Both the position numbers and the translations under genes were made by a program. From positions 186,001-250,000 of the forward strand of contig NZ_JONU01000007.1 in the NCBI RefSeq assembly GCF_000711985.1: DNA of 64,000 nucleotides. The letters run 5' to 3'. Shown one piece after another: positions 9,646 through 41,401 of the stretch; within the stretch, counting starts at the first letter, position 1, and each line of letters starts with the position of its first letter. Below the pieces are notes generated by a model. It worked only from the letters and a program-made list of their open reading frames with translations, had not been told where the DNA came from and did not search any database. The DNA comes from Rheinheimera texasensis DSM 17496 (GTDB taxonomy: Bacteria; Pseudomonadota; Gammaproteobacteria; Enterobacterales; Alteromonadaceae).

Positions 9646-9747
9646 AGTAATTATCTTTATATATAGATGAGCATACACTGGATCCTCAAACTTTCTCAAA
9701 AAGCATGTTTACTAGCGCTTATAGAAAGCTATTAACATTTTTGGAAG

Positions 9748-23683: not shown

Positions 23684-24784
23684 TTATAGCTGCCCGGAAA
23701 ATGCTTTTTGGCTTAATGACGAAAACAAATCAACTTCCAAGTTACCAGCATGTTTCTCTTTCATTGAATCAGTTTTATCTATTATCTGGTCAAGGATGCG
23801 TTGGGTCGCAATTGGTGGTAAAGGTATTTCAATCTGAAGTAAATCAGCTTTTGTTAGACTCGGAATTGTTACAGCTTTGTTTAAACGTTCAAAGTCGAAA
23901 AACTCGCAAAAAAAGAACAAATAGTTATGGCTCAGCATGTTTCTGTTCGGGACCAAACCAAACGCTGTGTCTACATTCCAAAATCGCTCTTTCATAAGAA
24001 TTGGGCTATTGATATTGCCTTTTCTACCAATAATCACTGAGTTTGCTTCAGTCAACCAGTCATTGGCTTTGGCCATATATCCTCCACTACCGCATATAGG
24101 GTACTGACCGATAGGATCTTCAACAGCTTTTTGATTTCTTCCGTTCACAATAGTTAGTGCTTCATTCCACTTTTTAACTTCCCAGCCTTTTGGGTTGGTG
24201 ACTGGGTCGCCGAACATTTCTAGGAAGACGGCGCGGAGGAAGTCGTCGGCGAGTTGGATGGCTTGTTGGCGTTTGCGGCGGATGGCGTCGGCTTTGTCTA
24301 ATATCGCAGCAATCCGTTTTTGCTCGGCTAGTGGTGGTAGTGGGATTTCAAAGTTCTTTAAGAAATCAGATCCAACTCGCTTTTGCCCTGCTGCGCCAAA
24401 CATGCTAGCAGCGCCTAAAGTTCTGAATTGGTTACTCCAAATCATGTAAAAAAGATAAGTCGCATCTAATTTAGATTGGTCAGGTCGAAGTACATGGAAT
24501 TCAGTCGAGCCAAACCCAACCGGATTGGAGATCTGGTTTGCTCTAAGACATTTACCATTTTCGAAACATGGAGTTATCTTGGCAAGCAACACATCCGACT
24601 TAGCAAAGTAAGTAAATCCTTTTTTTGTTTCCTCCAGCACTCTCGGCTCTTCGGATAGCAGTTGGCCATCTTCTGAAACTGATGCCATCCCTACAAAAGA
24701 GACTATTTGAGCGGAGTCTAGTTCTTTTGGTGCTCGCGGATTTAGAGTAACTACATCAACCAACTTCACCATCGGCCAGCTCAC
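23684..24784 (-). CDS. hsdS: Type I restriction-modification specificity subunit HsdS
   Basis: About 366 residues. Two target-recognition domains (about 1-145 and 195-325) are each followed by a conserved helical spacer. The central one reads PLPPLAEQKRIAAILDKADA and the C-terminal one PLPPIATQRILDQIIDK. The two TRDs read the two halves of a bipartite DNA site. GTG start overlapping the hsdM stop by 4 bp. The central spacer region is visibly richer in G+C than either TRD, as expected when TRDs are exchanged between alleles. The C-terminal spacer is shorter than average but looks intact. Confidence 0.95.
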   Translation of the reverse strand: MSWPMVKLVDVVTLNPRAPKELDSAQIVSFVGMASVSEDGQLLSEEPRVLEETKKGFTYFAKSDVLLAKITPCFENGKCLRANQISNPVGFGSTEFHVLRPDQSKLDATYLFYMIWSNQFRTLGAASMFGAAGQKRVGSDFLKNFEIPLPPLAEQKRIAAILDKADAIRRKRQQAIQLADDFLRAVFLEMFGDPVTNPKGWEVKKWNEALTIVNGRNQKAVEDPIGQYPICGSGGYMAKANDWLTEANSVIIGRKGNINSPILMKERFWNVDTAFGLVPNRNMLSHNYLFFFCEFFDFERLNKAVTIPSLTKADLLQIEIPLPPIATQRILDQIIDKTDSMKEKHAGNLEVDLFSSLSQKAFSGQL

Positions 24785-26370
24785 AGCATCCCCTCCAGTG
24801 CTTTTAAATCCGCCAGAATGTCGTTTTCCAGAGCGACTAATTTACTGAGGATCACTTTCGGGTCGTCGTATTGCTGTTCGGCGTAAACCACTTGTTTATA
24901 GCGGTTAATCGACAAATCGTATTTATTACCTGCGATTTCCTCTTTACTGACCCAAAAAGCTTTTTGGCTGCGATCGTTAGCATCGGTACTGGCGATGGTT
25001 TTATTGCGTTGATGGTAGCTTTTAACCAAGTTAGGCAAGTCGTTGTCTTTAATCGGGCTGCGTTTATCGTCCAGGCTAAAACCGTCAGCTTGCACGTCGT
25101 AGAACCAGACGTGGTCGGTGCTACCGCCTTTGGTGAAAATTAAAATCGCGGTCGATACACCGGCATAAGGTTTAAATACACCGCTGGGTAGCGAAACCAC
25201 TGCTTCTAACTGGTTTTTCTCGACCAGTAATTGGCGTAATTGTTGGTGGGCGTTGGATGAGCCAAATAACACACCGTCGGGCACAATAGTCGCGCTTTGG
25301 CCGCCAATTTTCAGCATGTTTTCAATCAGGCCGACAAACAGCAGTTCGGTTTTTTTGGTTTTTACTTTACGTAAAATTTCCGGGCAGACGTCTTCTTCAT
25401 CCAGGCTGCCTTTAAATGGCGGGTTGGCGAGGATAATGTCAAAACCGTTTTTAGCAGCTTTGGGAAAACGCTCTTTAAAGTTTTGGCTTAAGGTGTCCTG
25501 ATAATGGATATCCGGCTGTTTAATGCCGTGCATCACCAGGTTCATCGCGGCAACACGCAGCATGGTGGCGTCAAAGTCAAAACCGTGGAACATATCGGTG
25601 TCGATATGTTTGCGCTGTTCTGGGCTAATTAAATCGCCGGAATACAATACGTTTTCCAGTTGTTTGCCATTGGCGTCGAGTAGTGGTTTACCTTGCTCGT
25701 CAAATAAGGCTTCGCGCTCAACCCCATGAATGGACGTGTACTTTTCCATTAAGTACTCGTAGCTATTGACCAAAAAGCCGCCGGTGCCAGTCGATGGATC
25801 GCAAATTCGGCTATCAATGGCCGGGTCGAGAATTTCGACCATAGCGCGAATAATATGGCGCGGGGTGCGGAACTGGCCGTTAATGCCGGCAGTGGTGAGT
25901 TTACTTAACAGGTATTCGTAGAGGTCGCCTTTGGTGTCGCTGTTTTCCAGTGGCAGGTCGTTAACCATTTCCACCGCTTTGACCAGCAGTGTTTGCTTTT
26001 GGATCATCAGCTGGGCGTCTTTCATAAACTCAGCAAAGACTGAACCTTCGTTGCCCTCTTTTACGGTATTGGCTGAGCTTAATGAGAAAAATGGAAACAG
26101 CTCATCTTTGACCAATTTGTAGAGCTTATCGGCTCCTAAATGACGGAAATTCTGCCAGCGCAAGTGTTGCTGCTCATCGCTAAAGCGGCGGCTAAAGGCT
26201 TTGCCGGTGCGGGAAGATAGCTTTTCATCTTTCTGCTCGTTCATATCGAGCAGGCGGGCATACATTAAAAAGGTGATCTGCTCGACCACGGTTAACGGGT
26301 TGGTGATGCCACCGGTCCAGAATTCTTCCCAGAGTTTGTCGATTTTGCTTTTGAGCTGGCCTGTGATCAT
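24781..26370 (-). CDS. hsdM: Type I DNA adenine methyltransferase HsdM
   Basis: About 529 residues. An N-terminal helical HsdM domain is followed by the N6-adenine methylase domain. Motif I DPSTGTGGFL (AdoMet binding) is at 191-200 and the catalytic motif IV NPPF at 316-319. Transfers methyl from AdoMet to adenine in the site chosen by HsdS, protecting host DNA. ATG start with AGGA upstream. It follows hsdR by 133 bp, in which a GC-rich hairpin lies. Confidence 0.96.
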   Translation of the reverse strand: MITGQLKSKIDKLWEEFWTGGITNPLTVVEQITFLMYARLLDMNEQKDEKLSSRTGKAFSRRFSDEQQHLRWQNFRHLGADKLYKLVKDELFPFFSLSSANTVKEGNEGSVFAEFMKDAQLMIQKQTLLVKAVEMVNDLPLENSDTKGDLYEYLLSKLTTAGINGQFRTPRHIIRAMVEILDPAIDSRICDPSTGTGGFLVNSYEYLMEKYTSIHGVEREALFDEQGKPLLDANGKQLENVLYSGDLISPEQRKHIDTDMFHGFDFDATMLRVAAMNLVMHGIKQPDIHYQDTLSQNFKERFPKAAKNGFDIILANPPFKGSLDEEDVCPEILRKVKTKKTELLFVGLIENMLKIGGQSATIVPDGVLFGSSNAHQQLRQLLVEKNQLEAVVSLPSGVFKPYAGVSTAILIFTKGGSTDHVWFYDVQADGFSLDDKRSPIKDNDLPNLVKSYHQRNKTIASTDANDRSQKAFWVSKEEIAGNKYDLSINRYKQVVYAEQQYDDPKVILSKLVALENDILADLKALEGML

Positions 26371-26503: not shown

Positions 26504-29500
26504 TTAAGGCTTTAATTGTTCAACACGAGCTGCTTGATCAATTCGGGATAGTTTGGCCCCCAGCTTGACATCAAACTGGCGGATAAACCGTTGGATCACA
26601 TCGGCTTGTGCCTGACTAAACACACCATCCAACCCCATATCATGCACCGTGGTAAAAGGCGCATCGTACAACTGTTCAATGCTAATGGCACCGTAGCGCA
26701 CCACATGATTTTTTAAGAGGCCAATAAAGCGCTGTTGTTTGGCGTTCATGTGGGTATGGGTTTGCTGCACAAAGTCGGTAAAGGTTTGTTCGATGGCATC
26801 TTTGTCCATGCCGACAATAGTGCGCAAAATTTTGTCGAGCGTCGCCGAGGACTCCGGGAAAAACTCTTTGAGCGTGTTTAAATCGACATTCGGGTTTTGG
26901 GTGTGCACCAAGGAATTAAGTCTGGCTAAATCGTCTTCCGTGACACTTTCACCGGCGCGAATTTTTTTCAATACTCCATCGGTTTCAAACAGCGGCGCCA
27001 AAGTTTTTTCCACTTCCTGACGGAAAATTTGGTAGTCAATGGAGGCGATTTTGGCGGCACGTTCGGTCACTTGGTAGTCAGCAGTCTCTTCTTTGATATC
27101 TAACACCAAATCAGCGGTCGGCGTCACCATGGGCTTGTCACGCAGATGAATAATACTACGCAGCGCTTTGCGACTCTGTTCTAAGGCGTCAAAACTTAGC
27201 TGTTGCCAGTATTGGTCCTTTTGAATGTCGGCAATAAAGCTAGCCTTGGCACGTACTTCATTCAGGTGCATTTGCAGAGCTTCAATTTTACTGATGACTG
27301 TTTGACGGGCTGCGTCGATTTGGCTTGGATCGGTAAGCAGTAAGGTTTGCAACACCGCCATTTCGGTATCGAACTTAAAGGCTTCGCCTTGCCCCATAAT
27401 ATTGCGCCACTGCATCAACGGCGCGATGCTGTCCCACAACAATTTTTTTGTGTCTGGTGCAAATTGGTTTAACCGTTTGTGATCTTTGGCATTTTCAACG
27501 GCCTGCCAGTTATCACGCACCGCAATGGTATTCATATCTAGTGTGCAAATATCGGCATGCAGCAGGTTTATCACCTCGTTGAAGGTGTCTAAGTCGGCTT
27601 TTTTAAGCGCAATTTCCGCCAGTTGTAAGCGCGTTTCAAACAGTTTTTGGGTGAGTGATTTGCTTTGCTTCACGTCTTCCGGCTCTGGATCTAAGTCGAA
27701 ATATTCGAAGTTTTCCCAGTGATCGAAAATCAAGAAATGGGTTTTGTCTTTGCCTGGTCCGTACAGGTTTTTGCATAATCGGGTACCACGGCCAATCATT
27801 TGCCAGAACTTCACTTTGGATTTAATTGGCTTGGCGAACACTAAGTTGACCACTTCAGGCACATCAATGCCGGTGTCCAGCATATCCACTGAGATTGCGA
27901 TGCGAGCGCTGTTTTCGTCGTTGGCTTTAAAGTCATCAATCAACTCTTCAGCCCGCTCATATTTGGAGTGGATGACGCGACAGAAGTTAGCGCCTAGCTG
28001 CGGGTACATTTCGCCAAACAGTGTAGCTAATAGTTCAGCGTGTTTAATATTGCGGGCAAACACAATGGATTTACCCGGTAGCTGACCGTCGGCATCACGC
28101 AGGCCTTTTTCCATTAAATTGCGCAGTATTACCCGGTTTGTATCTTTATTTTTCACCGCTTCGTCAATTTGCGACGCGTCAAAATCCAGTGAGTTTGGAT
28201 CAATGCCCTGCTCTTCTAATTGGGCAATTTGTTCATCAGTAAAATTGTCTTTTCGAATGCCATCACGCAGGAATTTGGTGGTGAAGCTGACAATTTTATA
28301 GGGAACCAGGTTGCGCTCTTCGATGGCCTGCTCAAGCGGGTAATTGGCGGTTGGCAACTTATAATCACACCCAAAAAGTTCACAGGTTGAGCGCGACACC
28401 ATTTCCACCGGTGTGGCCGTTAAGCCTACTTCTAAGGCATCAAAATACTTAAAGATATCGCCATAGATGTTGTAAATAGAACGGTGGGATTCGTCAGCAA
28501 CAATCAGGTCAAAATAACCAACATCGTACTTTTGGAAAATGCTCATCATGCCTGGGTAGGTGGCAATAAACACCCGCGCGCTATCGGCGGTGTCTTTTTT
28601 ACTTTTACCAACAATATACAGTGGCTCTTTGGTATGTTCGTTAAAGGCATTGCCAGCTTGCTTGCGAAGCTCTTTGCGATCACATAAAAACAACACCCGC
28701 TTCGCCCAACCGGCATCTAATAGTCGTTTGGCAAGAGCGATAGACACGCGGGTTTTACCGGTACCGGTGGCTTGTACCACTAACGACTTGCGATGTTTAT
28801 CGGCAAAGCGCTCGCATACCCTGGTGATACTTTCAATTTGGTAAATACGGCCCGCGACCTTGGTATCGATTGGAGTTTTATTTAAATCTTGTTTCAGACT
28901 GCGTTGTTTTACCAGATATTGCAGACTGTCTTTGCTGTAATAACCGTACACCTTACGACTGTTGTAGCCCTGCGCGTCATCCAGCAGGCGAATGTCGTAA
29001 CCATTGGTGTAGAAAATGACGGGGCGGCGACCGTAGCGTTTTTCCAGTGCATCCGCATACAGGATGGCTTGTTGACGGCCTTTTTCCACCGATTCACGGG
29101 TACGTTTGGCTTCAATGACCGCCAGCGGAGTTTCGTCATCATCAAAAAGTACATAATCGACGCGGCCTTTGCCGGTTGCTGTTGGTTGGCCATCGACTTC
29201 AAATTCTTTACGTACTTGGTCGGTGGAACTTTCATCAAGCGATACATCCCAACCCGCCGCGCGTAAATCCATATCAATAATACGGGCACGGGTTTGCGCT
29301 TCGTTGAAGTTAAAGCCAGACATGGTGGTGAAATTTACTTTGGCTTGTTGTACGGCGCCGGTGTCGATGGCTTTTTGTAATTTTGCGGCGACTTGCTGGG
29401 CTTTTAACTGCGCAGCTTCGGCAGCTTTAAGCTCTTCCAAGGCTTGTTTTAAGCGAGCTTCATGCTCGGCTAGTTTTTCTTGCAACTGCTTATTTTGACG

Positions 29501-29953
29501 GGCAAACGCTACATCTGTTTGGTCTGCTTGTTTAGAACAATCGGGCGCCACAAACTGAGGTAAGTTATTGGCGTTGCCACCACAAAAGGCGACATAAAAA
29601 TAACCACTGACAAAATAAGATTCCTGCAGGATCCAAACAGCTTCCTGTTGATTCACTTTGCCTTCGTGAGCAGCACGATTGCCACTTTTACGGATAGCAT
29701 GCAGTTTTTCGATAATGGTATTGGGGACGGCAGATTTGAAATCTTCAGCGTTAATTTTGTCGATAATGTTGGAGTTCGCATAAACAGGCAGCTGCAATTT
29801 GGCGTAAATCACCCCAACGATTTTTTCCATCAGGCAGCGCATTTTTACCAGCGCACTTTGCGGATCGGTGCAGGCATAATCATGCGCAAAAGCGGCTAAT
29901 TGATAAAGCTCTGGTAAGGCTTCAAGATGTCTAAAACTCATTGCGTGCTTCAT
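26504..29953 (-). CDS. hsdR: Type I restriction endonuclease subunit HsdR (EcoEI type)
   Basis: About 1,149 residues. An N-terminal DUF4145-like helical domain and coiled coil (to about 200) come first. The HSDR_N nuclease is next, with VDYVLFDDDETPLAVIEAKR giving the D...E-x-K core. The SF2 motor has Walker A ATGTGKTRVS, DESH in VADESHRSIYN, and the SVDMLDTGIDVPEV and MIGRGTRL motifs. The EcoEI-type C-terminus binds HsdM/S. Two start ATGs are possible: 29953, with AAGGGA about 10 nt upstream, and 29941. A near-consensus sigma-54 promoter lies at 29983-29998; its expected transcription start (about 29971) leaves a very short leader, which would suit 29941. The gene starts 60 bp after the CARF/sigma-54 activator. 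Confidence 0.95.
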   Translation of the reverse strand: MKHAMSFRHLEALPELYQLAAFAHDYACTDPQSALVKMRCLMEKIVGVIYAKLQLPVYANSNIIDKINAEDFKSAVPNTIIEKLHAIRKSGNRAAHEGKVNQQEAVWILQESYFVSGYFYVAFCGGNANNLPQFVAPDCSKQADQTDVAFARQNKQLQEKLAEHEARLKQALEELKAAEAAQLKAQQVAAKLQKAIDTGAVQQAKVNFTTMSGFNFNEAQTRARIIDMDLRAAGWDVSLDESSTDQVRKEFEVDGQPTATGKGRVDYVLFDDDETPLAVIEAKRTRESVEKGRQQAILYADALEKRYGRRPVIFYTNGYDIRLLDDAQGYNSRKVYGYYSKDSLQYLVKQRSLKQDLNKTPIDTKVAGRIYQIESITRVCERFADKHRKSLVVQATGTGKTRVSIALAKRLLDAGWAKRVLFLCDRKELRKQAGNAFNEHTKEPLYIVGKSKKDTADSARVFIATYPGMMSIFQKYDVGYFDLIVADESHRSIYNIYGDIFKYFDALEVGLTATPVEMVSRSTCELFGCDYKLPTANYPLEQAIEERNLVPYKIVSFTTKFLRDGIRKDNFTDEQIAQLEEQGIDPNSLDFDASQIDEAVKNKDTNRVILRNLMEKGLRDADGQLPGKSIVFARNIKHAELLATLFGEMYPQLGANFCRVIHSKYERAEELIDDFKANDENSARIAISVDMLDTGIDVPEVVNLVFAKPIKSKVKFWQMIGRGTRLCKNLYGPGKDKTHFLIFDHWENFEYFDLDPEPEDVKQSKSLTQKLFETRLQLAEIALKKADLDTFNEVINLLHADICTLDMNTIAVRDNWQAVENAKDHKRLNQFAPDTKKLLWDSIAPLMQWRNIMGQGEAFKFDTEMAVLQTLLLTDPSQIDAARQTVISKIEALQMHLNEVRAKASFIADIQKDQYWQQLSFDALEQSRKALRSIIHLRDKPMVTPTADLVLDIKEETADYQVTERAAKIASIDYQIFRQEVEKTLAPLFETDGVLKKIRAGESVTEDDLARLNSLVHTQNPNVDLNTLKEFFPESSATLDKILRTIVGMDKDAIEQTFTDFVQQTHTHMNAKQQRFIGLLKNHVVRYGAISIEQLYDAPFTTVHDMGLDGVFSQAQADVIQRFIRQFDVKLGAKLSRIDQAARVEQLKP

Positions 29954-29982
29954 TCCGTAAGTGTCCCTTATATCCCTGTACC

Positions 29983-29998
29983 GCAACTATGGTGCCAA
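29983..29998 (-). promoter_or_regulatory. Near-consensus sigma-54 (-24/-12) promoter for hsdRMS
   Basis: Minus-strand TTGGCACCATAGTTGC: TGGCAC, then TTGC, with exactly 10 nt between the GG and GC doublets, as in the sigma-54 consensus TGGCACG-N4-TTGC. Immediately downstream is hsdR, and immediately upstream ends a sigma-54 activator gene. Expected transcription start about 29971. Confidence 0.7.
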
Positions 29999-30013
29999 GC
30001 TTTTTAACTCTGA

Positions 30014-31513
30014 CTAACTATCAGGTTTGATCTTAAGCTTTTCCATCCAATTACTGAGCGTCTGATGATTGGCCAACCCGAGCATTTTCGCTGCTTTTGA
30101 CAAGTTGCCATTTGCCTTTTCTAACGCTGCATAAACCAACTTTTCTTTAATACCATCAATATATTGATGCACATCGAAGCCTGCAACTAAATCAGGTACT
30201 TTGGACTCCGGACTGGTTGAAAATGCAACGGGCAAGCACGCTTGTTGTAGCTGTTCAGCTGTAATTTCTTGGTTTTCGGCCCAGAGTACCGACCGATTCA
30301 GCGTGTTCCACAGTGCGCGGATATTACCTGCCCAGTCGTAGCTTTCTGCAAACTTTATTGCATGAGTGGAAATAGTTTTACCTTCAAATCCAGGTTGACG
30401 AGCAAAGGTGGTATTTATTTCCGCAAGAATTTGCTGAACTAACTCTGGAATGTCTGCTCGGCGTTCACGAAGCGCCGGTAGTTCAATTACACCGACCGCC
30501 AAACGAAAATATAAGTCTTCACGGAAAGAACCATCGGCGACCATTTGCGTGATTGGCCGATGCGTGGCAGCTAAAATCCTCACATCAACAGTGCGAGTTT
30601 TGCTGTCGCCGACGCGCGTGATTTCGCCGTGTTGTAAGGCTCGAAGTAGCTTTACTTGTACTGAGGGAGGCAATTCCCCGACTTCATCTAAAAACAAGGT
30701 GCCGCCATCGGCTTGTTCGAATAAACCAGCGTACTGTCTATCCGCTCCGGTGAACGCCCCTTTGACATGACCAAATAAAATGGAATCCACTAAGTTCTCT
30801 GGAATAGCACCACAGTTAACAACCTTCATTGGCTTGTCACTACGTGCACTCGCTGCATGAATGGCATTTGCGAGCACTTCTTTACCGGTGCCGGTTTCAC
30901 CAAGCAATAATGCGGGGAGATCGGTGGCAGCTAATTTTTGCGCTTTGAAGATAACCTGCTGCATTGGTGCTGAGTTCGCGACCAAATCTTTAAAAGCACC
31001 ACCAAAACTTGGCCCTGCAACGACTTTGGCTTTGATGTTCGTCCGCGCCACTTTGGCGTAAGTGGCATCAAAATCAAATGGGATCCGCACCTCTTCAATC
31101 GTGTTATCCGGCCCTGTTTGTAATAATTGGCATTGGTAAATGCCTTTGCCAAGCAATACTGATACCGCAGCCATGGTCGGCGTGCCGGAAGTAAGATTGA
31201 TATAAAGCTGCGATTGGCTTTGCGATAAAGTCGACAAATTGCGCTGCATGATCGCTGCGACCGCTGAGTAATCAGTTGGTGAAATGAGAGATTGGCGAAC
31301 AATTTCAGCCCTTGCCGGACGCCCTAATATCGCTAGTCGCTTATTCAACCACTCTTCATAACGCAGCCAATGCTCATCCCAAGTATTTGCGAGAATAATG
31401 ATCTGATCGAATACGACAGTATGCTTGGTCGCCAACGTAGCAATGGAAGCCAGTTTGTCTGCCTGCATGTTATCGATGTCGGTCTTACCTAACCATGAGA
31501 TGAGTACTTTCAT
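30014..31513 (-). CDS. CARF-domain sigma-54-dependent transcriptional activator, RtcR-like
   Basis: About 499 residues from the ATG at 31513 (MKVLISWLG); longer in-frame starts add residues unlike the family. Residues 1-150 form a Rossmann-like CARF domain: strands VLISWL, IIILAN and YINLTSGTPTM (about 104-115), the last being the ligand-loop pattern of CARF/RtcR proteins. The sigma-54 AAA+ domain has Walker A GETGTGKE (205-212), GAFTGA (253-258), which contacts sigma-54, and TLFLDEVGE Walker B. A Fis-type HTH (about 463-490) binds DNA. RtcR of E. coli has the same architecture and senses RNA-repair signals; the ligand here is unknown. The gene sits between hsdRMS and divergent druHE, both with sigma-54-like promoters. 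Confidence 0.9.
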   Translation of the reverse strand: MKVLISWLGKTDIDNMQADKLASIATLATKHTVVFDQIIILANTWDEHWLRYEEWLNKRLAILGRPARAEIVRQSLISPTDYSAVAAIMQRNLSTLSQSQSQLYINLTSGTPTMAAVSVLLGKGIYQCQLLQTGPDNTIEEVRIPFDFDATYAKVARTNIKAKVVAGPSFGGAFKDLVANSAPMQQVIFKAQKLAATDLPALLLGETGTGKEVLANAIHAASARSDKPMKVVNCGAIPENLVDSILFGHVKGAFTGADRQYAGLFEQADGGTLFLDEVGELPPSVQVKLLRALQHGEITRVGDSKTRTVDVRILAATHRPITQMVADGSFREDLYFRLAVGVIELPALRERRADIPELVQQILAEINTTFARQPGFEGKTISTHAIKFAESYDWAGNIRALWNTLNRSVLWAENQEITAEQLQQACLPVAFSTSPESKVPDLVAGFDVHQYIDGIKEKLVYAALEKANGNLSKAAKMLGLANHQTLSNWMEKLKIKPDS

Positions 31514-31645
31514 ATAGTGAATTCGTTTTAGTGATTGCCACGAACAGGCGATCAGAGTAAACCTCCAAACCGACTCCAACCAAATATTTTTTACATTAAT
31601 TGCAAAATATCTTACCTCCTGACTACACCACATATTCGAACCAGG

Positions 31646-31672
31646 AATTCAATTCGTTTATCTAATTGAATT
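31646..31672. promoter_or_regulatory. 9-bp inverted repeat, candidate activator binding site
   Basis: AATTCAATT (31646-31654) and AATTGAATT (31664-31672), perfect arms with a 9-nt spacer, in the divergent region between the CARF activator and druH. It lies about 30 bp upstream of the druH sigma-54-like element, nearer than most upstream activator sites, and about 130 bp upstream of the activator start codon. It could therefore serve activation, autoregulation, or both. The rest of the 325-bp intergenic region shows no further structure. Confidence 0.45.
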
Positions 31673-31698
31673 TAAACAATTATATTACGGCCACTTCA

Positions 31699-31716
31699 CC
31701 GGCTCACATTATGCTT
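31699..31716 (+). promoter_or_regulatory. Candidate sigma-54 promoter for druHE
   Basis: CCGGCTCACATTATGCTT: GG and GC are separated by exactly 10 nt. The -12 side (ATGCT) is good; the -24 side (CGGCTC) is weaker than TGGCAC. Predicted start near 31726 gives a leader of about 110 nt to the TTG at 31839. Confidence 0.45.
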
Positions 31717-31838
31717 TGATTAGCTCGGCATTCGAAAGCGTTTCATTTCGGCTACCGACACCATCAGCTTAAACGGTCCCACTAAAGAGTTGATTTGTTT
31801 CCACAAAAAAGATATACGTACCTGAAAAGGAGATAAAT

Positions 31839-33380
31839 TTGAATACTCAACAATGGATTACTGAGTTCCTGTTTACGCGCGCTTTGTTTAAAGGCCCAGT
31901 AAGTAAACCACTTTATGCGTATCAGGTGACTGAAGAAGAATATTCACAGCTGATATCTCTGCTTCAAGATGCCTGTTTTGATACGCATCCTGCCTTTACA
32001 AAACCTCATCCGACAGCGGCATGCTTCTGCTTATTTGTTGCTGAGTACTATCGGCGATACTACAACGGCAACTGGGACTGGCGTGGGGCTGAGGATATCT
32101 TAGGAGTTCAGCTGTCACAGACCGACAGGTCTATTTTGGTCAAACGCGGCTTGGAATATTGGCAGCGTGAAGTTAAAACCAACAACAATGGATACAACTA
32201 TCTCGGCAGTCTTTTTGCTGAAGGCGGATTGCCATGGCCGTTAGTCAGCGGAGAGCAACACGGATTCGGCAGAGCCATCAAACGAGGTATCAAAAATTTC
32301 TATCGTTCGGATGACTTAAAACGCAGTCTGACCGATTTGATGCAGGATTATCAAAAAGAGTTACCGCAAAGTTTTCAAAACTTTGAGACCATTCAGTTAC
32401 TCGCGGCAATTGTTCACCAATTGATGAGCTACGCACAGAAAATCCCGCAGGAGTACAAACGTGAGCCTGCGCGTTATCTTGACCAAACAGTTCCTGATTG
32501 GAACAACGCGTTTCCTATCCCATTGGATATCGGTAACGGCAGGCAGCTGGTCAACGAATGGTTAGCGGATGCGGTTTTCATAGAAGGCGAACAGAAGCTG
32601 ACAAAGGAAAAGTTAAAGGCTTTTTCTGCACAACATTATGTTACTTGTTTCTCCCCTGAGACTTTCTTTGAAAGCGAAGTATTTTTGCCACGAAACATAA
32701 CTTTGGATATCGACCATACAGTGGTCAGTACCATGCGTTTTGAAACTGCACTTTACGAAGGTCAACGATTAGCGCAAAAATCGATCGCCGTGTATGGTCA
32801 AATTCAAGACAACAAACTTAGTGTCAGACTTTCCGTCACACAGCTGAGATTGTTAAGAGACAAGACCGACGTACCGCTATTTTTTAAATTATTAGAGAAT
32901 GGCCGCGCCATTTTTACGGCCGAAATCGACAATTCCACGATTGACACAGTGAACGCGCCGATCGTCGCGGTTGAGGAAGACGATCGTTGGGTCATTGCTG
33001 CGACAGCCAGTTGCTCGCTTAAAGCAACCAACGTCAGAACTTTTGTTCCTGCGACAGCTAAGCTTGTCATTGATGAGCTGCAATTGCTGCCAGAACCACT
33101 TGTCGTGTTGCCGATGGGAAGCTGGTTCCCGTTATCGGTCAATCACAGCGTGGTTACGCCACAAGACAAATTTTTGGTTTCCCTGAATTGTGCAGCGCTG
33201 CAAATAAGCCCGTTCAAACTCTCTGGCCGCCAGTTTTATGGTGAAACCTCGCCACAAACCGTTTATCTGGGTTTCCCTAGGTTAAGCGTCAATCAGGCTG
33301 ACGAGACGGTTTTGCCTCAATACTTCGAATTTTTTAACGGGATCCCCGCCAAAAATGTTCCATTAATGCTGGGGCCGTGA
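31839..33380 (+). CDS. druH: DruH-like (STY4851/YjiT family), N-terminal portion
   Basis: About 513 residues from a TTG start with AGGAG 6 nt upstream. It resembles the STY4851/ECs_5259 (YjiT) family, the DruH component of Druantia type III, by its helical N-terminal half (EYYRRYYNGNWDWRG, QREVKTNNNGYNYLGSLFAE) and its partner, a giant DUF1998 helicase. DruH is normally one protein of about 1,100 residues. Here the frame stops at 33378-33380 and the next frame begins at 33377; together they make about 1,098 residues. Function in anti-phage defence is known only genetically. Confidence 0.7.
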   Translation: MNTQQWITEFLFTRALFKGPVSKPLYAYQVTEEEYSQLISLLQDACFDTHPAFTKPHPTAACFCLFVAEYYRRYYNGNWDWRGAEDILGVQLSQTDRSILVKRGLEYWQREVKTNNNGYNYLGSLFAEGGLPWPLVSGEQHGFGRAIKRGIKNFYRSDDLKRSLTDLMQDYQKELPQSFQNFETIQLLAAIVHQLMSYAQKIPQEYKREPARYLDQTVPDWNNAFPIPLDIGNGRQLVNEWLADAVFIEGEQKLTKEKLKAFSAQHYVTCFSPETFFESEVFLPRNITLDIDHTVVSTMRFETALYEGQRLAQKSIAVYGQIQDNKLSVRLSVTQLRLLRDKTDVPLFFKLLENGRAIFTAEIDNSTIDTVNAPIVAVEEDDRWVIAATASCSLKATNVRTFVPATAKLVIDELQLLPEPLVVLPMGSWFPLSVNHSVVTPQDKFLVSLNCAALQISPFKLSGRQFYGETSPQTVYLGFPRLSVNQADETVLPQYFEFFNGIPAKNVPLMLGP

Positions 33381-35134
33381 GCTATCAGGTGAAAGATGCC
33401 GCCGGTCATACGCTCTATCGCCGGCACTTCGGGTTATTACCAGCAGACTTTGAGCTCAATACCCGCGCAGCGCCTATCGGTGAGACTGCGCTGATGACAC
33501 TAGCATCAAATGCCCCCATAGACATTGTGACTGAAGCGTCAGATGTGTATGAGGCGACGCTAGTCCCTGGCAAGCGCAACTCATTCGCGGTGACAGCTAG
33601 GTCGGCCAATGTGATACCAAACCCACTATTTAAGATAGCTAGCCCTAGCAATGATAAGTACCTGTTGCTTCGTCAAAGGTACCCAGTGTCCGGTGCGAGA
33701 TTGTTAACTCCGGATGAAAGTCTTTGTGCAACAAACGAGCTCTTGCTCAATCAATTAGCCGGTTACAGACTTTTACTGTGTGCTCCTAACTCTGTCGCAG
33801 AAAGCTTTACGCTAGTTTTTGCGGTACATAGCCGGAACGGCGTGCTGGTGAGTACGTCGAAAAAAGTCAAAATCTTAGGCAGTACCGAAACTTTGAGTTT
33901 GTATGGCTTCTATCAGGATTTTGTTCAATTGCTTTCGGTCACCGACGACCAAGATGCTTTCATCAATATTGAAGTTAAAACAAACAGAACATGGCTGACG
34001 TTTTCGATCAGGCGCTATAACGCCCGCTTAGTCCGCGAGGGTGATAGCTATTTGACGGTCGTTCACAATAGACAACTGGCAAAAAGCAGTGAGAAACCAC
34101 AAGATCTTTTTGCCATGAGTTTGACAGACCCATTACAAACTCCGGTTGCATTGGAGAAGCACTGCACTGAAGGTGTTGCTACTGGGTTGTATCACACTGA
34201 CATATTGAGAAGACAGCCTGATCTTTGGTTAGTTTACGCGCCTGCAGAGAGCGAATTTAGTTTCAGGCCTTGCTTATATGTGACTCAAGAACAATCCGCT
34301 ATTGAAGTTGACCGAGAAATTAAGACTCTGCACAGCGCTGCGAAGGCCTACCATCCCGTTGCCAATCCGGATGTGATTCAGCATGTTATTACGCAAATGG
34401 CGGAGGATTATCATCACACTGGCTGGCAGTATTTAGCAGCGCTTAAGCAAAACTATAGTCATCTGCCCCTCTCAACATTTGAAACCTGGAAAGCGCTGGC
34501 ACAAAGCCCTGCTGCATTAGCGCTGGCTATTTTCCGACTTGAATTGGACGAAAGCTTTTGCTTAAGACTTCGCGATGAATTGGCTGTGATCTTTGAAACT
34601 ATCCCGCTTTTGGTGTGGATTAAGACGCGCCAAATCTTTAAATCGGTGCTGAGCGCTGCTGGTTTGCCAGAAATTTTTGTCGAGAGCACCATTAAAAACC
34701 GTGACGGTGTTATGCGTCTGGTAGTTTCCGGTTTTGATCACATGACAGATTATCTGGATACCGGCGATGTCAATGTTCTCATACTACCGCCATTAGACGC
34801 TGTTTTGAGAATTTGGTATCAAGGATTAAGGCAAGATCATGTTGATGATCAATGGCCGGAGACTTTGAAACAACCGTTACGTTCCTGGCTTGCTGAAGCT
34901 GACCTTCCGCAATGCGTGAAGCAACTCACTGGCCGTAATTACACCGACTCGGTGACCTTCTTACCCATTTTTATGGCGTATGTTTCAGTTGGAAAAGCAT
35001 CCATTGCTCAGCTTGGCGATAATCACACGCTCATCAAATTCTTTATTAAACAGCATGCTGACTTTGATCGGCGCTGGTTTTTAGATTTACACGCGCTCAT
35101 GGTTGCTCATTTAGAAAAATACAAAAGGAATTAA
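33377..35134 (+). CDS. druH: DruH-like protein, C-terminal portion (possible frameshift partner)
   Basis: About 585 residues. The GTG start overlaps the stop of the preceding frame (GTGA). The sequence continues as if without a break: LMLG from the first frame and VSYQVKDAAGHTLYRRHFG from the second. A one-base deletion (or -1 slip) at the GGGGCC run, 33371-33376, would explain the split. Alternatively the family has naturally divided into two coupled subunits. Beta-rich first half, helical second half, no catalytic motif seen. It is followed directly by the helicase gene. Confidence 0.7.
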   Translation: MSYQVKDAAGHTLYRRHFGLLPADFELNTRAAPIGETALMTLASNAPIDIVTEASDVYEATLVPGKRNSFAVTARSANVIPNPLFKIASPSNDKYLLLRQRYPVSGARLLTPDESLCATNELLLNQLAGYRLLLCAPNSVAESFTLVFAVHSRNGVLVSTSKKVKILGSTETLSLYGFYQDFVQLLSVTDDQDAFINIEVKTNRTWLTFSIRRYNARLVREGDSYLTVVHNRQLAKSSEKPQDLFAMSLTDPLQTPVALEKHCTEGVATGLYHTDILRRQPDLWLVYAPAESEFSFRPCLYVTQEQSAIEVDREIKTLHSAAKAYHPVANPDVIQHVITQMAEDYHHTGWQYLAALKQNYSHLPLSTFETWKALAQSPAALALAIFRLELDESFCLRLRDELAVIFETIPLLVWIKTRQIFKSVLSAAGLPEIFVESTIKNRDGVMRLVVSGFDHMTDYLDTGDVNVLILPPLDAVLRIWYQGLRQDHVDDQWPETLKQPLRSWLAEADLPQCVKQLTGRNYTDSVTFLPIFMAYVSVGKASIAQLGDNHTLIKFFIKQHADFDRRWFLDLHALMVAHLEKYKRN

Positions 35135-38100
35135 TTGGTTATGCGTTATTTCAGCGAGTTAGTAAAGCAGTCACTGAATAGAACCCGTGAAGCCACATTG
35201 AGTATGATTGGCGTCAATAACCAAGGGCTACGTGAGCATTTAAGCCAACAAATGAGTGATGAACTGGGGGCCGATGGCTGTTTTCTAGCGCCGCCGATGT
35301 TCGAGCATACTTTTGGTTGGCAAGAGAGTGATACGACCTTTGCAGAGTTAGCCGGGAACTTATTGTCTGAAACGTTGGTTGATACATTAGCCAGCGCGCA
35401 AAACTACAATTTCCCGAAAACAGCCGTACCATATAAACACCAGATCACGGCGTGGCAGCATCTGCTCTCGGAAGAGCCGAAATCTGCCATCGTGACCACA
35501 GGTACCGGCTCTGGTAAAACTGAGTGTTTTATGGTCCCCATCCTTGATGATTTGATTCGGTTATCGAAACAACAAAATGGTGCTTTAGTTGGTGTATCTG
35601 CACTATTTCTTTATCCATTGAATGCACTGATTAACTCGCAACAAGAACGACTTGATGCATGGACAAAGCAGTTCGATGGCAAGCTTCGATTCTGTTTATA
35701 CAATGGAAACACCGAGGAATCTGAATCTACGGTTCGTAAAGAACAAAAATTAAAGCCTAATCAAATTCTCTCGCGTCAACTCCTAAGAAAAGAACCTGCA
35801 CCAATCCTGATGACCAATGCCACCATGCTTGAATACATGCTGGTGCGGCAAATTGACGACCCGATTATTCAGATTTCAAAAGCAAAACAATCGTTACGTT
35901 GGATAGTGCTTGATGAGGCCCACACCTATGTGGGATCGCAGGCTGCTGAACTATCATTATTGTTACGACGTGTCGTACAAGCGTTTGGTAAACAGGCGAG
36001 TGAAATCCGTTTTGTCGCAACATCGGCCACCATTGCTGATAATGACGCAAAATCAAAGCTTGAGCGTTACCTCGCAGATTTAGCCGGAGTACCTGTTTCT
36101 CAGATTTTGGTCATCACCGGCGAACGGATCCGCCCACAAATCGATACGAGTCGGGCAATTCGCAATCTATCGCTTGCAGACATCATGGCAATTGACGCGA
36201 CCGCTGAAGTATCCGCGAACCGCTATGCAGCGCTTGAAGATCACCACTTATGTAGACGCATCAGACACGCAGTTCTTGAGTCATTAAAACCGCTCGATTT
36301 AAAGGACTTGTATGAAAAAGTAGCAGACCTGCTGGATGGTGCTGATAAAACTGGCAAGCTGCAAAACTTGCTAGCTTGGCTTGATGTGATGACCGGGACT
36401 TTTGCGCACAAAGATGGACATCCATTTTTAAAGTTAAGAGCTCACCTTTTCCAACGGATGCTCCATGGTCTGTGGGCTTGTGTTGACCCCAATTGCTCAG
36501 TAAAAGGCGAAAGCCTGAAAAACTTCCCTTTTGGCAAAGTCTTTGTGTCACAACGTTCAACCTGTGAATGCTGTGCGCCTGTCTACGAACTAGCATTCTG
36601 TAATGACTGTCGAGAGCCGCATCTAGTGGCTCAGGAGGACAGTCAGGGCATATTGCAACAACCATCTTCTTATAGTGGTGATGAGTTTGCTTTACATGGA
36701 GAGCCAGAGAATGAGGAAGACTTGTCTTTAGACGACACAAACCGGAAAGAAGTAAAAAGTCCGAGTTCTAACAAGATAATCGCGGTTAAAGCAAGCGATG
36801 AAAAATATCAAAAACATACGATCAATAGATCAACTCGTACAATAGACAATTTACCAACCTCAGATTCTATAAGTGTTTGGTTAGCTGATACGAATGATGC
36901 TGCTTGCACAGGGTGTGGTCTTGAAAGCAAAAACTCTGTCGATTTTTTACGTAAAGCTTACTTAGGTGCGCCGTTTTATGTCGCTAACGCAGTGCCAACT
37001 GTGCTGGAGTTTTGTCCTGATCCCAGTAAAAAAGACTCGGCTGGTCGCTCGCCGGAAGAGTTGCCAGGCCGGGGCAGAAAACTAATCACCTTTACCGATA
37101 GTCGCCAAGGTACAGCACGAATGGCTGTTCGGATGCAGCAGGAAGCAGAGCGCTCTAAATTGCGGGGATTGGTTTTAAGCGTATTGCGTAATAAGCAGGC
37201 TAAAGCAAATTTTGATGCAAAAACTTCATCATCAAACGTTGATTACCAAGTACAGTTAAAACTTGCCGAACAGCTAGAGTCGTTGAAACTTTACGACCAA
37301 GCAAAAAAAATACGTTTAGATGCAGAACAGCTGCTGTCAGCGCCCCCTGCAATTTCCATAGGTTTTAACGCATTGACCGAGGAACTTGCAGCAAGTAAAG
37401 ATATTTCTCAAGCCATACTGAGATACAACCGTTATACCAACCCTGCACTATTTGACGATACCATCGGCCCCAAAGTCATGTCTCGCTTGTTATTAGCGAG
37501 AGAGTTCAGCCGTAGACCAAAAAACCAGAATAGTGCCGAAACGCTTGGCCTTGTCCGGATCGGTTATCAAGATTTAGATAGGGTGACGGTAACTCCCGAC
37601 CGCTGGGCAACCACAACCGCAATAGACCCGACTGGCGAACAACATGCTCAGAAAACTGCTTTAACACTGAATGACTGGAAAGACTTTCTGAAAGTCGCAT
37701 TGGATTTTTATGTCCGTGAAAATACCTTCGTAACCATGACCAGAGATCTGCAGCTATGGATGGGCAGTAAATTCACGCCAAAAAGTCTGTACACTCCGAC
37801 CACTGATATTCAGGAAAGTAGTGTCATCAAAAAGTGGCCGCAAATTAAGCAAGGCAATCCATCAAGATTAATAAAAATCCTCGAACTCGCGACAGGCTTG
37901 TCAAGAACTGAAGCTGTCGGTAAAGACCTGATGAACAATTGGCTTATCGCGGCGTGGAAACAACTTACCGATCTAAAGGTCCTAGAAAATTTGGACGGCG
38001 GTTTTCAATTAAAATTGGAGACCCTGACTTTTTCGTTGCCACAAACAGCCTGGGTTTGCCCATTTACCCGACGCCTGATTGATACCACTTTTAGGGGGTT

Positions 38101-41100
38101 AACCCCTTACCTGCCAAGAAAGCTCGATGGCAGAGACTATCGTTGCAGAAAAGTCGATTTACCTGACTTTACCAGCTTCATTCAGTGCTCAGGCCCGTCT
38201 GATTTACCCGAGCTACGTGCGCAACTCAACAATAACCAAATCGTTCAGTCACTCCGAACGGAAAACTTATGGACGGATTTAAGTGACCGAGCATTAGAGG
38301 GCGGTTTTTATTACCGCACAGCAGAACACTCAGCTCAACAATCGGCGAACACTCTTGGTTTGTATGAAGAACTGTTTAAAAAGGGCGATATTAACGTCCT
38401 CAATTGTTCTACAACAATGGAAATGGGTGTTGATATCGGCGGTATTTCGGCGGTCGTGATGAACAATGTACCGCCACACCCTGCTAACTATTTACAACGC
38501 GCCGGGCGTGCAGGACGTCGTAGTGAAGCTCGAGCAATTGCCTACACATTATGCAAAGCCGATCCGCATAACCAACGCGCTTTTTTAAATCCCAAATGGC
38601 CTTTTGTCACAGCAATTGCCGCCCCCAAGGTTACTTTAACATCAGCCAGAATTGTTCAGCGTCATGTCAATTCGGCCTTGCTTTCACTATTCTTGAAAAC
38701 GTGCGTACCTGTACAGGAAACCGATCGTACTAGGCTGACTGTTGTTTGGTTTTACGCAGGTGAAAGTCAACCTTGTATCAATTTCTGTAGTTGGCTGCAA
38801 AGCGAACAGCAGCATTTTATAAATATGGTGATGGTGCTTGTCTCTGGAACCGCCCTTTCAGGTCGCTCTGTCAATGCGATTGTTGCAGACACCGTGAGCG
38901 CAATTACTGCGCTTCGCGAGTACTGGAGTAAACAACGCTTACAAATTGTCAGTTTTGTCGAAAAAGCGGCTGATCCTGCCTATAAAATGGCTCTGGAACT
39001 GGAGCTAAAGCGGCATGACCAAGATTATCTGTTAAGAGATCTGGCTAGCCGTGCATTCTTACCTGGTTATGGTTTTCCAACCGATGTTGTTAACTTAAAT
39101 AACTACAATGTTGAGGACTGGTCAGAAACATCTAAACACAAGAAAGATAAAGACCGGGAAGACAATATTTTCACGTTAAAAGAAAAACCGAGTCGAAGCC
39201 TTGATGTTGCACTACGGGAATACGCGCCTGGCGCAAGCTTAGTTATCGACGGTCGCGTTTACCGCTCTGCCGGCGTCATGCTGCAAAACTATGAATCAGG
39301 TTCGGGCTCTCCATTAAAGTTTGATTTGGCTTGGCGCTGTCATAACTGTGGAGCGACAGGCGTGAAAGAGAACGCATATAGTCAGCACAACAATCTGCGA
39401 TGTACGCATTGTCAGGCTGTAGTTACAGAAATCAAAACAACCCTCAGGCCTGTCGGATTTACCACCGATTTCTATGAACCGACATCAAATGATATTACCA
39501 GCCAAAAATTCATAAAAATGGCCTTACCGCGCGTGCAGGTTCACGGGGAAGTTTTGCCATTGCCGGATCCGCGCTGTGGTTTTGTGCGTTTTGGTCATGG
39601 TGGCACGGTTTTTCATCATACATCGGGAGAAAACGACGCTGGCTTTGCGGTATGTCTGGCGTGCGGCAAAGCGGAATCAATGCTTGATGATAAAACACCA
39701 CCCAAAACATTAGCGCATGACAAGGAACACCGGCCGATAGGCGGTGCAACAGGAACCAATAAGCTGGCGAATTGTTCTGGCAAAAACGTCAAGACCAATT
39801 TATATCTGGGTTTTCATACTCATACGGACGTGCTCGAACTAGCTTTAAAAAATCCGGTATCGGGCGAATGGTTAACTGATAAACCAGATCATCAAATCGT
39901 TGCCAGAACGCTTGCTGTGGCGCTGAGAGATACTATTGCTGAGCATATCGGTATTGCCAGCTCTGAGATGGGATTCGCTATTCGCCTAGACAAAGACTTA
40001 GTCACTAAAAGCAATCGCTCAATCATTCAGGTATTCGATAACGTCAGCGGTGGTGCGGGTTTTGTACTCAGTGGTTTGAATAACATTCAGCAACTGATGC
40101 TCAAATCCTTTCAATTACTGCAGTGTCCGGCAAATTGTGCGAATGTCTGCTCAAAATGTCTGGCGAGCTCTGACAGTCGGGTCGAACTGCAACAACTCGA
40201 CCGCAAGCTTGCCCTCTCCTGGTTGGAGAAAAATAAAATTGAAGAGTATTTGCATCTGCCTGAGCAGTTCCAAAGCATCTCGGGTGCTGAGTTATGCGCT
40301 GTTGGGCCAGCTCGGTTTATCCAAGCATGCCAGAACATGCGTTCTTCACATCAAGAGCCGTTTACTTTACGTTGTTTTTTACACGGTACGCCTGAACAAT
40401 GGGACCTTGGCCTCCCCTCATTTAAAGACAAGCTGCTAACCTGGAAACTGATTGATAAGTTAAACGTAGAGCTCGTATTCCCGCAGAAGACAATTCCTGA
40501 TGCAGAGATGATTCGACAATTGGGAGCTTTCGAAAGTTTGGGCATTTCTGCGTTTACAATCAGTGACGCGAGCGTTTCTAAAGCCGACCACACATACATC
40601 GGGGTTCAAGCACTGTTTAACGAACAATGTGTGACTTTGATAACAAACTCGATGAATAGCGCTACACCCGGAGAAAGCTGGCTCACAACAAGCGAAGATA
40701 CAATTTGGGTTTCGACTAAATCAACAGCGCCGCTTGAATTATCGCCGCTACAGCTCGATAAGTCTCAGGTTGAAAAGGATAACATCGCGATTATTGAGAT
40801 AACCGATCATCTAAACGGAAAAGTTGAGCGTTTCGGTAGTCTGTTAGGCGACTTACTGAAAACCAAAGTCCCGGAATTGACGAACAAATTGGAAAAGTCA
40901 GTCATTAAGCGGCTGACTTACACAGACAGGTATTTAAAATCTCCCTGGGCGGCGCTGCTTTGCAGTCAATTGTTAAGTACGTTTGCCGGAAAGCACACCA
41001 TCCCGGTCATCATCAATACAGTCGCGAGCAATAGTAATCAGCAAGGACGACTGATATCTCACGACTGGCAGTTTGAATCTGAACAACAGTATGTTCTGAC

Positions 41101-41401
41101 CAAATTAATGGAAATCGCGGCGACTAACGCCAAAGTGCTGGTCAATACGGTGTCGTCGGTTTGGGAGATACCGCACTCTCGAGTTCTAACGATTGAATGG
41201 GAAGATAACTCCCAAACCCAACTGCTCCTCGATCAAGGTGTCGGATACTGGAAAGCCAATACCTATTCCAGTGTTCAAAAAGAGCATGATTTCTATTTGG
41301 ATGCAGAAGGTCAGTTATCGGACTTGCTGGGTAAAACCAGCGATATGAAAGTCGTTAACAGCGCAAGCTGGCCGACGTTTGTTGTGGTGAAGACGATTTA
41401 G
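35135..41401 (+). CDS. druE: DruE-like giant DEAD/DEAH helicase with DUF1998
   Basis: About 2,088 residues. An SF2 helicase comes first: Walker A TTGTGSGKTE near 128, VLDEAH near 262, SATIAD near 290, and, after a long cysteine-containing insertion, NCSTTMEMGVDIG and YLQRAGRAGRR near 1120. The DUF1998 region holds SGGAGFVLSG and the metal cysteines CPANCANVCSKCL near 1635-1675. The last 300 residues include YTDRYLKSPWAA and IPHSRVLTIEW, possibly a PLD/MIT_C-like domain (inference). TTG at 35135 directly follows the DruH stop with AGGA at good spacing; ATG at 35141 is an alternative. DruE is the signature gene of Druantia; with DruH it defines type III. Confidence 0.9.
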   Translation: MVMRYFSELVKQSLNRTREATLSMIGVNNQGLREHLSQQMSDELGADGCFLAPPMFEHTFGWQESDTTFAELAGNLLSETLVDTLASAQNYNFPKTAVPYKHQITAWQHLLSEEPKSAIVTTGTGSGKTECFMVPILDDLIRLSKQQNGALVGVSALFLYPLNALINSQQERLDAWTKQFDGKLRFCLYNGNTEESESTVRKEQKLKPNQILSRQLLRKEPAPILMTNATMLEYMLVRQIDDPIIQISKAKQSLRWIVLDEAHTYVGSQAAELSLLLRRVVQAFGKQASEIRFVATSATIADNDAKSKLERYLADLAGVPVSQILVITGERIRPQIDTSRAIRNLSLADIMAIDATAEVSANRYAALEDHHLCRRIRHAVLESLKPLDLKDLYEKVADLLDGADKTGKLQNLLAWLDVMTGTFAHKDGHPFLKLRAHLFQRMLHGLWACVDPNCSVKGESLKNFPFGKVFVSQRSTCECCAPVYELAFCNDCREPHLVAQEDSQGILQQPSSYSGDEFALHGEPENEEDLSLDDTNRKEVKSPSSNKIIAVKASDEKYQKHTINRSTRTIDNLPTSDSISVWLADTNDAACTGCGLESKNSVDFLRKAYLGAPFYVANAVPTVLEFCPDPSKKDSAGRSPEELPGRGRKLITFTDSRQGTARMAVRMQQEAERSKLRGLVLSVLRNKQAKANFDAKTSSSNVDYQVQLKLAEQLESLKLYDQAKKIRLDAEQLLSAPPAISIGFNALTEELAASKDISQAILRYNRYTNPALFDDTIGPKVMSRLLLAREFSRRPKNQNSAETLGLVRIGYQDLDRVTVTPDRWATTTAIDPTGEQHAQKTALTLNDWKDFLKVALDFYVRENTFVTMTRDLQLWMGSKFTPKSLYTPTTDIQESSVIKKWPQIKQGNPSRLIKILELATGLSRTEAVGKDLMNNWLIAAWKQLTDLKVLENLDGGFQLKLETLTFSLPQTAWVCPFTRRLIDTTFRGLTPYLPRKLDGRDYRCRKVDLPDFTSFIQCSGPSDLPELRAQLNNNQIVQSLRTENLWTDLSDRALEGGFYYRTAEHSAQQSANTLGLYEELFKKGDINVLNCSTTMEMGVDIGGISAVVMNNVPPHPANYLQRAGRAGRRSEARAIAYTLCKADPHNQRAFLNPKWPFVTAIAAPKVTLTSARIVQRHVNSALLSLFLKTCVPVQETDRTRLTVVWFYAGESQPCINFCSWLQSEQQHFINMVMVLVSGTALSGRSVNAIVADTVSAITALREYWSKQRLQIVSFVEKAADPAYKMALELELKRHDQDYLLRDLASRAFLPGYGFPTDVVNLNNYNVEDWSETSKHKKDKDREDNIFTLKEKPSRSLDVALREYAPGASLVIDGRVYRSAGVMLQNYESGSGSPLKFDLAWRCHNCGATGVKENAYSQHNNLRCTHCQAVVTEIKTTLRPVGFTTDFYEPTSNDITSQKFIKMALPRVQVHGEVLPLPDPRCGFVRFGHGGTVFHHTSGENDAGFAVCLACGKAESMLDDKTPPKTLAHDKEHRPIGGATGTNKLANCSGKNVKTNLYLGFHTHTDVLELALKNPVSGEWLTDKPDHQIVARTLAVALRDTIAEHIGIASSEMGFAIRLDKDLVTKSNRSIIQVFDNVSGGAGFVLSGLNNIQQLMLKSFQLLQCPANCANVCSKCLASSDSRVELQQLDRKLALSWLEKNKIEEYLHLPEQFQSISGAELCAVGPARFIQACQNMRSSHQEPFTLRCFLHGTPEQWDLGLPSFKDKLLTWKLIDKLNVELVFPQKTIPDAEMIRQLGAFESLGISAFTISDASVSKADHTYIGVQALFNEQCVTLITNSMNSATPGESWLTTSEDTIWVSTKSTAPLELSPLQLDKSQVEKDNIAIIEITDHLNGKVERFGSLLGDLLKTKVPELTNKLEKSVIKRLTYTDRYLKSPWAALLCSQLLSTFAGKHTIPVIINTVASNSNQQGRLISHDWQFESEQQYVLTKLMEIAATNAKVLVNTVSSVWEIPHSRVLTIEWEDNSQTQLLLDQGVGYWKANTYSSVQKEHDFYLDAEGQLSDLLGKTSDMKVVNSASWPTFVVVKTI

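Follow-up and report, generated by a model that had tools for sequence, protein, structure and literature searches.

A stretch of 64,000 nucleotides from Rheinheimera texasensis DSM 17496 (contig NZ_JONU01000007.1, positions 186,001 to 250,000; here called the window) contains a defence island with an activator of the RtcR_PspF2 type. The activator gene lies between the Type I restriction-modification (R-M) genes hsdRMS and the divergent Druantia type III genes druHE. It is quite probable that this CARF-gated enhancer-binding protein is the master activator of the island and acts through tandem dyads, which are paired palindromes found in and beside its gene and in front of two further modules. 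This reading starts from the positions of genes, promoters and dyads, their conservation and their spacing, all taken from the sequence.

The whole activator matches the PADLOC profile RtcR_PspF2--CARF_AAA_HTH (PDLC01995; E 8e-176, 583.8 bits, residues 1–496 on profile positions 1–481), against only 181.7 bits for the canonical RtcR profile. The Pfam domains are Sigma54_activat, its lid and a Fis-type helix-turn-helix (HTH). The columns of its GAFTGA motif are invariant in all 11 aligned proteins, the Walker motif of the window protein reads GETGTGKE, and an rpoN gene is found in the R. texasensis genome. Strand 4 of the CARF domain reads GTPxM, with the Pro invariant in 11/11; its position as the charge site was judged by eye. 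In the available part of PMC4012209, the positive charge that follows CARF strand 4 in other CARF domains is described as mostly absent from RtcR families. A GTPxM strand without this charge would point less to cyclic oligoadenylate than to an RNA-end signal of the kind proposed for RtcR. When the CARF part was compared with PDB sequences, no credible match emerged.

Searches with the CARF part found the regulator in 26 of 295 genomes of the family and 6 of 369 of the class (own genome in each), and in six plasmid records. The single-protein search of genome contigs gave no relative. With the alignment as query, the contig search gave 80 loci, most of which match in the AAA+ part only; one of them (L023) was kept as a relative, and the 79 loci L024–L102, taken without screening for CARF domains, served as controls. 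The relatives are 37 other loci (30 from genomes, six from plasmids and L023), or 38 with the window.

An HsdR match is the first recognised gene directly downstream of the regulator in 26 of the 37 other loci, with 25–27% identity in L129, L134 and L148 and a 30-residue stub in L128. The promoter candidate for hsdR is TTGGCACCATAGTTGCG, which has GG at −24 and GC at −12 at the correct spacing. Sigma54 promoters have the consensus YTGGCACGNNNNTTGCW; the scoring scheme was built from this consensus with weights of our own and a maximum of 15.8. The hsdR site scores 14.7, a value equalled by 0 of 100 shuffles. In 28 of the 38 loci, the window among them, a sigma54 site falls −1 to +28 bp from the activator stop codon, and no more than 3 of 100 shuffles equal it. 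The site lies farther away in L153 and L157 (+82/+83) and in L019 (−20). The search for sigma70 promoters gave one site against 3.1 expected, and so allows no statement on them. Conservation across loci makes control of hsdR by the CARF-gated sigma54 activator well supported. The first-pass annotation had described an RtcR-like protein with CARF, sigma54 AAA+ (GAFTGA) and Fis-type HTH parts, placed between hsdRMS, 60 bp downstream, and divergent druHE. The protein agrees with the PADLOC and Pfam matches and its placement with the open reading frames (ORFs) and PADLOC; the proposed control of hsdR and the link to R-M are supported by the conserved promoter and gene order in relatives.

Upstream of the regulator, most loci of the family carry GTAA-N6-TTAy and GTAA-N6-TTAC about 19 bp apart. 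The overall pattern is a tandem palindrome, GTAA-N6-TTAC, which occurs twice at a distance of about 20 bp. The matrix for it, 14 bp long, was derived from 33 upstream boxes in 18 loci, excluding the window and L128, so that the upstream dyads of these 18 loci are in-sample and the intragenic, other and window dyads are out-of-sample. Pairs scoring at least 15 number 58 in the 38 loci (801 kb), against 0, 2, 2, 1 and 5 in five dinucleotide shuffles. The 79 control loci of other sigma54 activators (1.33 Mb, of different base composition) have one such pair and no unit with a sigma54 site. At a score of at least 20, 40 pairs are found in the 38 loci and none in shuffles or controls. Within the R. 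texasensis genome, four pairs scoring at least 10 fall in an 82-kb region around the regulator, made up of the window and a further 18 kb, and a 412-kb sample from elsewhere has no pair of at least 13. The four are located before the metallo-beta-lactamase (MBL)-UvrD module (score 24.5), before CoCoNuT (24.2), in the gap between druH and the activator gene (19.3), and inside the activator gene (18.9).

The intragenic dyad recurs with a score of at least 15 in 24 loci, at about +1110 to +1150 of the regulator gene. Synonymous conservation in 30 genes (the 34 full-length regulator genes minus those more than 85% alike) peaks at codons ~375–392 with z 15.8, and the next separate peak reaches 7.3. 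In 15 genes below 60% identity, the values are 8.5 and 5.1. The 3′ end of the activator gene, 50–64 bp before the hsdR promoter, shows no peak in the synonymous profile. Among the 34 genes, an intragenic dyad (at least 11) is associated with a stop-adjacent sigma54 site (at least 13), the counts being 24/3 versus 2/5 (Fisher p 0.0035; both thresholds were our choice).

Dyads away from the regulator were compared over 1.2 Mb, and for each the best sigma54 site was sought on both strands within 300 bp. This site lies 50–54 or 62–64 bp downstream in 19 of 27 cases. The ranges were set from the first 11 of these dyads, 10 of which fit; 9 of the 16 found afterwards fit as well (p 2e-13 if a uniform null is assumed and kinship ignored). 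Such units stand about 0.5 kb or less before druH in L017, L132 and L134, and about 0.8 kb or less before the VWA gene in L020, L128, L131, L140 and L157; in L020, a small DUF4258 gene is in between. In the window, sigma54-like sites with TGGCAT at −24 follow the dyads of the MBL-UvrD and CoCoNuT modules (Table 1).

From these features we infer binding of the activator to the dyads, activation, a ligand and induction by phage. The activator would bind the tandem palindromes GTAA-N6-TTAC. The intragenic dyad, about 350 bp upstream, would serve the sigma54 promoter just past the activator stop codon and thereby hsdRMS. The two dyads with sigma54-like sites 63–64 bp downstream would serve the MBL-UvrD module and CoCoNuT (VWA-PP2C-kinase-CnuH-CnuE-CnuB-CnuC), and the dyad upstream of the activator gene probably sets the level of the activator itself. 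Upon infection, the AAA+ ATPase would be set free by an RNA-end or nucleotide signal on the CARF domain, and the promoters would be switched on together.

Several observations weigh against this circuit. In the seven genes below 50% identity, four of which have an intragenic dyad scoring under 15, the synonymous peak is not outstanding (2.8 to 3.1 versus 2.9). Intragenic dyads are weak or absent in L019 and L153–L156, which are outside the family. The distance of 350 bp between the intragenic dyad and its promoter differs from the 50–64 bp of other units. Eight of the 27 dyads away from the regulator do not have their best sigma54 site at the fixed spacing (L128 +20613, L131 +22133, L132 +22501, L135 +20000, L138 +23815 and +25415, L139 +14775, and one in L152), a poorer site being present at 64 bp in the case of L139. 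The internal window sites carry GA at −12 and score 11.6 and 11.8 of 15.8. Finally, no sigma54 site was found by the stop codon in 7 of the 38 loci (L020, L129, L132, L135, L137, L151 and L152); four of these have interrupted regulator frames, so that the stretch tested there is not the end of the gene.

The first-pass annotation had proposed that the activator turns on hsdRMS and divergent druHE at once, with sigma54-like promoters in front of both. As a whole this is doubtful. The dyad at 31581–31615 is one of the four in the window, and the distance from it to a GG-N10-GC site in front of druH is 83 bp, 20 bp more than the 63-bp spacing. DruH occurs in 8 of 295 family genomes, and all eight, the own genome included, are among the 26 with the regulator, one having them on different contigs (hypergeometric 1.2e-9, and 1.4e-8 when the own genome is left out, uncorrected for kinship). 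The druH site CCGGCTCACATTATGCT, third in score among the best divergent-side sites of 23 loci with an upstream dyad, behind L016 and L015, is matched by 4 of 60 shuffles; with this chance-level score and a spacing unlike that of the other units it is not upheld as a promoter, and only the hsdR half of the promoter claim stands. Another 22 loci carry an upstream dyad, with 19-bp spacing in 18. On that side, the DNA retrieved contains Druantia in none of them, and a good sigma54 partner is mostly lacking, a pattern that fits autoregulation. The divergent layout is seen in 0 of the 37 other loci (upstream DNA of less than 5 kb in six), and the plasmid DruH relatives L166 and L167 have no dyad of at least 10 within 25 kb. 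Druantia lies downstream on the regulator's strand in 7 of the 37 (downstream DNA extended for 20), and in L140, druH comes immediately after the activator gene with its sigma54 site. For relatives, co-occurrence, dyad units and the gene order of L140 support control of Druantia III by the regulator family, whereas control of the divergent druHE in the window is possible, yet doubtful. The proposed pair of targets is also incomplete: R-M and Druantia were correctly recognised, and the CoCoNuT at the end of the island was overlooked, as were the dyads and sigma54-like sites before it and before the MBL-UvrD module.

It is unlikely that the activator drives only the first promoter of a superoperon from hsdR to CoCoNuT, with the internal dyads as relics of once-separate modules. 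From hsdR to CnuC, the long ORFs that do not overlap do run in a single direction, the available part of PMC11090510 proposes superoperons whose internal promoters are RtcR-independent, and the GA at −12 of the internal sites would be in line with this. Relics should have decayed, whereas the internal dyads outscore those on the regulator side and keep the 63–64 bp spacing; similar units also stand before druH or VWA in other loci. It is quite unlikely that the intragenic dyad works as a roadblock or silencer in autoregulation instead of as an hsdR enhancer. It is inside the gene, and a second dyad is near the gene's own start, as such a role would have it; the intragenic dyad, however, accompanies the stop-adjacent sigma54 site, and L020 and L157, which lack it, have a dyad located at the stop codon or behind it, 53–63 bp before a sigma54 site. 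A dyad motif by itself does not name its protein, so another, co-inherited regulator could be imagined to bind it. This is very improbable, as the dyads sit in and beside the activator gene, pair with sigma54 sites, and occur as a single pair of at least 15 in the 79 control loci and as no pair of at least 13 in the 412-kb sample of the own genome (the scan did not cover genomes lacking the regulator as a set).

Table 1. Features of the window that bear on the proposed regulation (sites and genes in order of position).
Feature	Position	Strand	Basis or remark
CnuB-like GTPase, N-terminal part	1..1866	−	Leaves window, continues in L021; start read by eye
CnuE-like protein	1901..3472	−	Sequence comparison; C-terminal RDSAAH fits HEPN RxxxxH
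Superfamily 1 (SF1; AAA_11/AAA_12) helicase, CnuH-like	3393..6704	−	Profile match
Ser/Thr kinase	6714..8129	−	Profile match
PP2C phosphatase	8122..8829	−	Profile match
TerY-like VWA protein	8833..9534	−	Listed start 9534; ATG 9507 after ribosome-binding-like stretch likelier, by eye
Sigma54-like site ATGGCATAACTCTTGAT	9546..9562	−	Sigma54 score; 64 bp from dyad; −12 is GA, not GC
Tandem dyad before CoCoNuT module	9627..9660	−	Dyad matrix
UvrD-type helicase with zinc ribbon	9748..12639	−	Profile match
MBL-fold protein	13818..14909	−	Profile match; first gene past CTGGCATAACTCGTGAA site
Sigma54-like site CTGGCATAACTCGTGAA	14947..14963	−	Sigma54 score; 63 bp from dyad; −12 is GA, not GC
Tandem dyad before MBL-UvrD module	15027..15060	−	Dyad matrix
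hsdS	23684..24784	−	Profile matches
hsdM	24781..26370	−	Profile matches
hsdR, Type I restriction subunit	26504..29953	−	Profile matches; ATG at 29953, 60 bp past activator stop
Putative sigma54 −24/−12 promoter of hsdR, TTGGCACCATAGTTGCG	29982..29998	−	15 bp past activator stop codon
CARF–sigma54 AAA+ (GAFTGA)–Fis-type HTH activator, 499 aa	30014..31513	−	Profile matches, alignment with 10 relatives
Intragenic tandem dyad (putative enhancer), activator codons ~378–389	30348..30381	−	Dyad matrix, synonymous conservation
Tandem dyad upstream of activator gene (putative autoregulation and/or druH)	31581..31615	.	Dyad matrix
Weak sigma54-like site before druH, CCGGCTCACATTATGCT	31699..31715	+	Score 12.6, not above chance
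druH, first part	31839..33380	+	PADLOC; DruH3 profile 4–502
druH, second part	33377..35134	+	PADLOC; DruH3 profile 517–1094
druE, Druantia III helicase (DruE3)	35135..41401	+	PADLOC

The TerY-P triad (VWA, PP2C, kinase) and the SF1 helicase are compatible with CoCoNuT subtype II or III-A. The CnuB-like GTPase is 48% identical to its Polaromonas counterpart; the match of the CnuE-like protein stands at 23%. The CnuC candidate has no Pfam match, and an rlmL-like gene lies beyond it. The gene order fits a Type II superoperon, with the RtcR homologue first, Type I R-M directly next in the same direction, and CoCoNuT last. The internal sites at 14947–14963 and 9546–9562 and the site of L139 +14775 have a common core, GGCATAACTC-K-TGA, with GA at −12. 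Such GA-type sites are perhaps weaker, or were copied from one another.

Both hallmark genes of Druantia type III, druH and druE, are present, druH being split over two ORFs that overlap by GTGA (33377–33380). It is a single frame of 1084–1171 aa in six of seven family relatives and of 765 aa in the seventh; the break may be a real split, a frameshift or an assembly error. Between the upstream dyad and druH, a long AT-rich inverted repeat, AATTCAATT-N9-AATTGAATT (31646–31672), is a possible site of another regulator. Converging on druE, a pair at 41832–47729, presumably AddAB-like, consists of a UvrD helicase with a PD-(D/E)XK nuclease and a second PD-(D/E)XK protein. The N-terminus of HsdR and the protein at 48456–50189 both match DUF4145/PDC-M16A profiles (DUF4145 below cut-off in the latter), which suggests a common N-terminal domain.

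In the loci without HsdR in first place, the first recognised downstream gene is the VWA-PP2C-kinase triad in four of the 37 (L019, L020, L157 and, after ~4 kb, L153), druH in one (L140), and another gene in six (L016, L132, L135, L137, L151 and L152). Nine proteins of other islands were scanned: L135 has BREX (BrxA, BrxC, PglX), L132 has Zorya (ZorA, ZorC), L128 has a DrmD-like protein and a Type III methylase, and two proteins of L016 gave no match. In L128, the closest relative, the sigma54 site and about 30 hsdR codons (77%) are retained at ~+1536 to +1625 from the regulator and are followed by other defence genes, as if the payload behind the promoter had been exchanged. On the Azotobacter plasmid pAcX50d (L018), the hsdR/hsdM matches are fragmented, and the regulator frame before them is full-length with dyad and sigma54 site.

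PspF, another sigma54 activator with AAA+ and HTH parts, has enhancers that reach its own promoter as well; it is not known to carry a CARF sensor and has other targets. To our knowledge, WYL-domain regulators, of which BrxR is presumably an example, differ in their sensor and DNA-binding domains and do not use sigma54. They, too, make up a single regulator family found next to defence systems of many kinds, as the available part of PMC9122601 describes. PspF is named in the available part of PMC4012209, and RtcR is not mentioned in that of the YprA helicase preprint PMC12458937. RtcR, with which the activator shares CARF, sigma54 AAA+ and HTH, activates rtcBA RNA repair in a sigma54-dependent manner (PMC9650030 and PMC7790460, available parts). 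The activator differs in having hsdR, druH and other restriction and defence modules as neighbours and a dyad inside its own gene; in its immediate neighbourhood, rtcBA is not adjacent. RtcR-like CARF-AAA-HTH proteins adjoining R-M systems, with predicted sigma54 activation, were reported in 2014 (PMC4012209), with the same architecture and R-M link and, in the available parts, no promoter, enhancer or multi-module regulon. RtcR-CoCoNuT superoperons, described in the available part of PMC11090510, have the RtcR homologue first, Type I R-M directly after, CoCoNuT last and sometimes Druantia III; the window differs in its divergent Druantia and in several proposed activator-type promoters instead of one. 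As far as these sources go, the association of the regulator with Type I R-M, CoCoNuTs and Druantia III is already published and is not new. Among the matches listed, judged by titles and beginnings of abstracts, none concerns enhancers or sigma54 promoters of these islands. The new element of this analysis is the cis-regulatory layout of stop-adjacent sigma54 site, tandem dyads and fixed spacing.

There is a slight preference for the broader reading that defence islands can be single inducible regulons, in which the CARF/sigma54 activator has an enhancer within its own coding sequence and a portable dyad-sigma54 cassette (~53 or 63 bp) has spread before unrelated modules (Type I R-M, Druantia III, CoCoNuT, and modules in BREX- and Zorya-bearing islands). 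A module that acquires the cassette would join one ligand-gated response, and promoter strength may determine the sequence of events, from R-M at the start to CoCoNuT at the end. The switching of defence islands is poorly known. If the proposed circuit is true, one sensor would govern several systems through a readable DNA code, making regulons predictable from sequence, and the published RtcR-CoCoNuT proposal could be put to the test promoter by promoter. The enhancer within the activator codons would tie the regulator to its target module in horizontal transfer.

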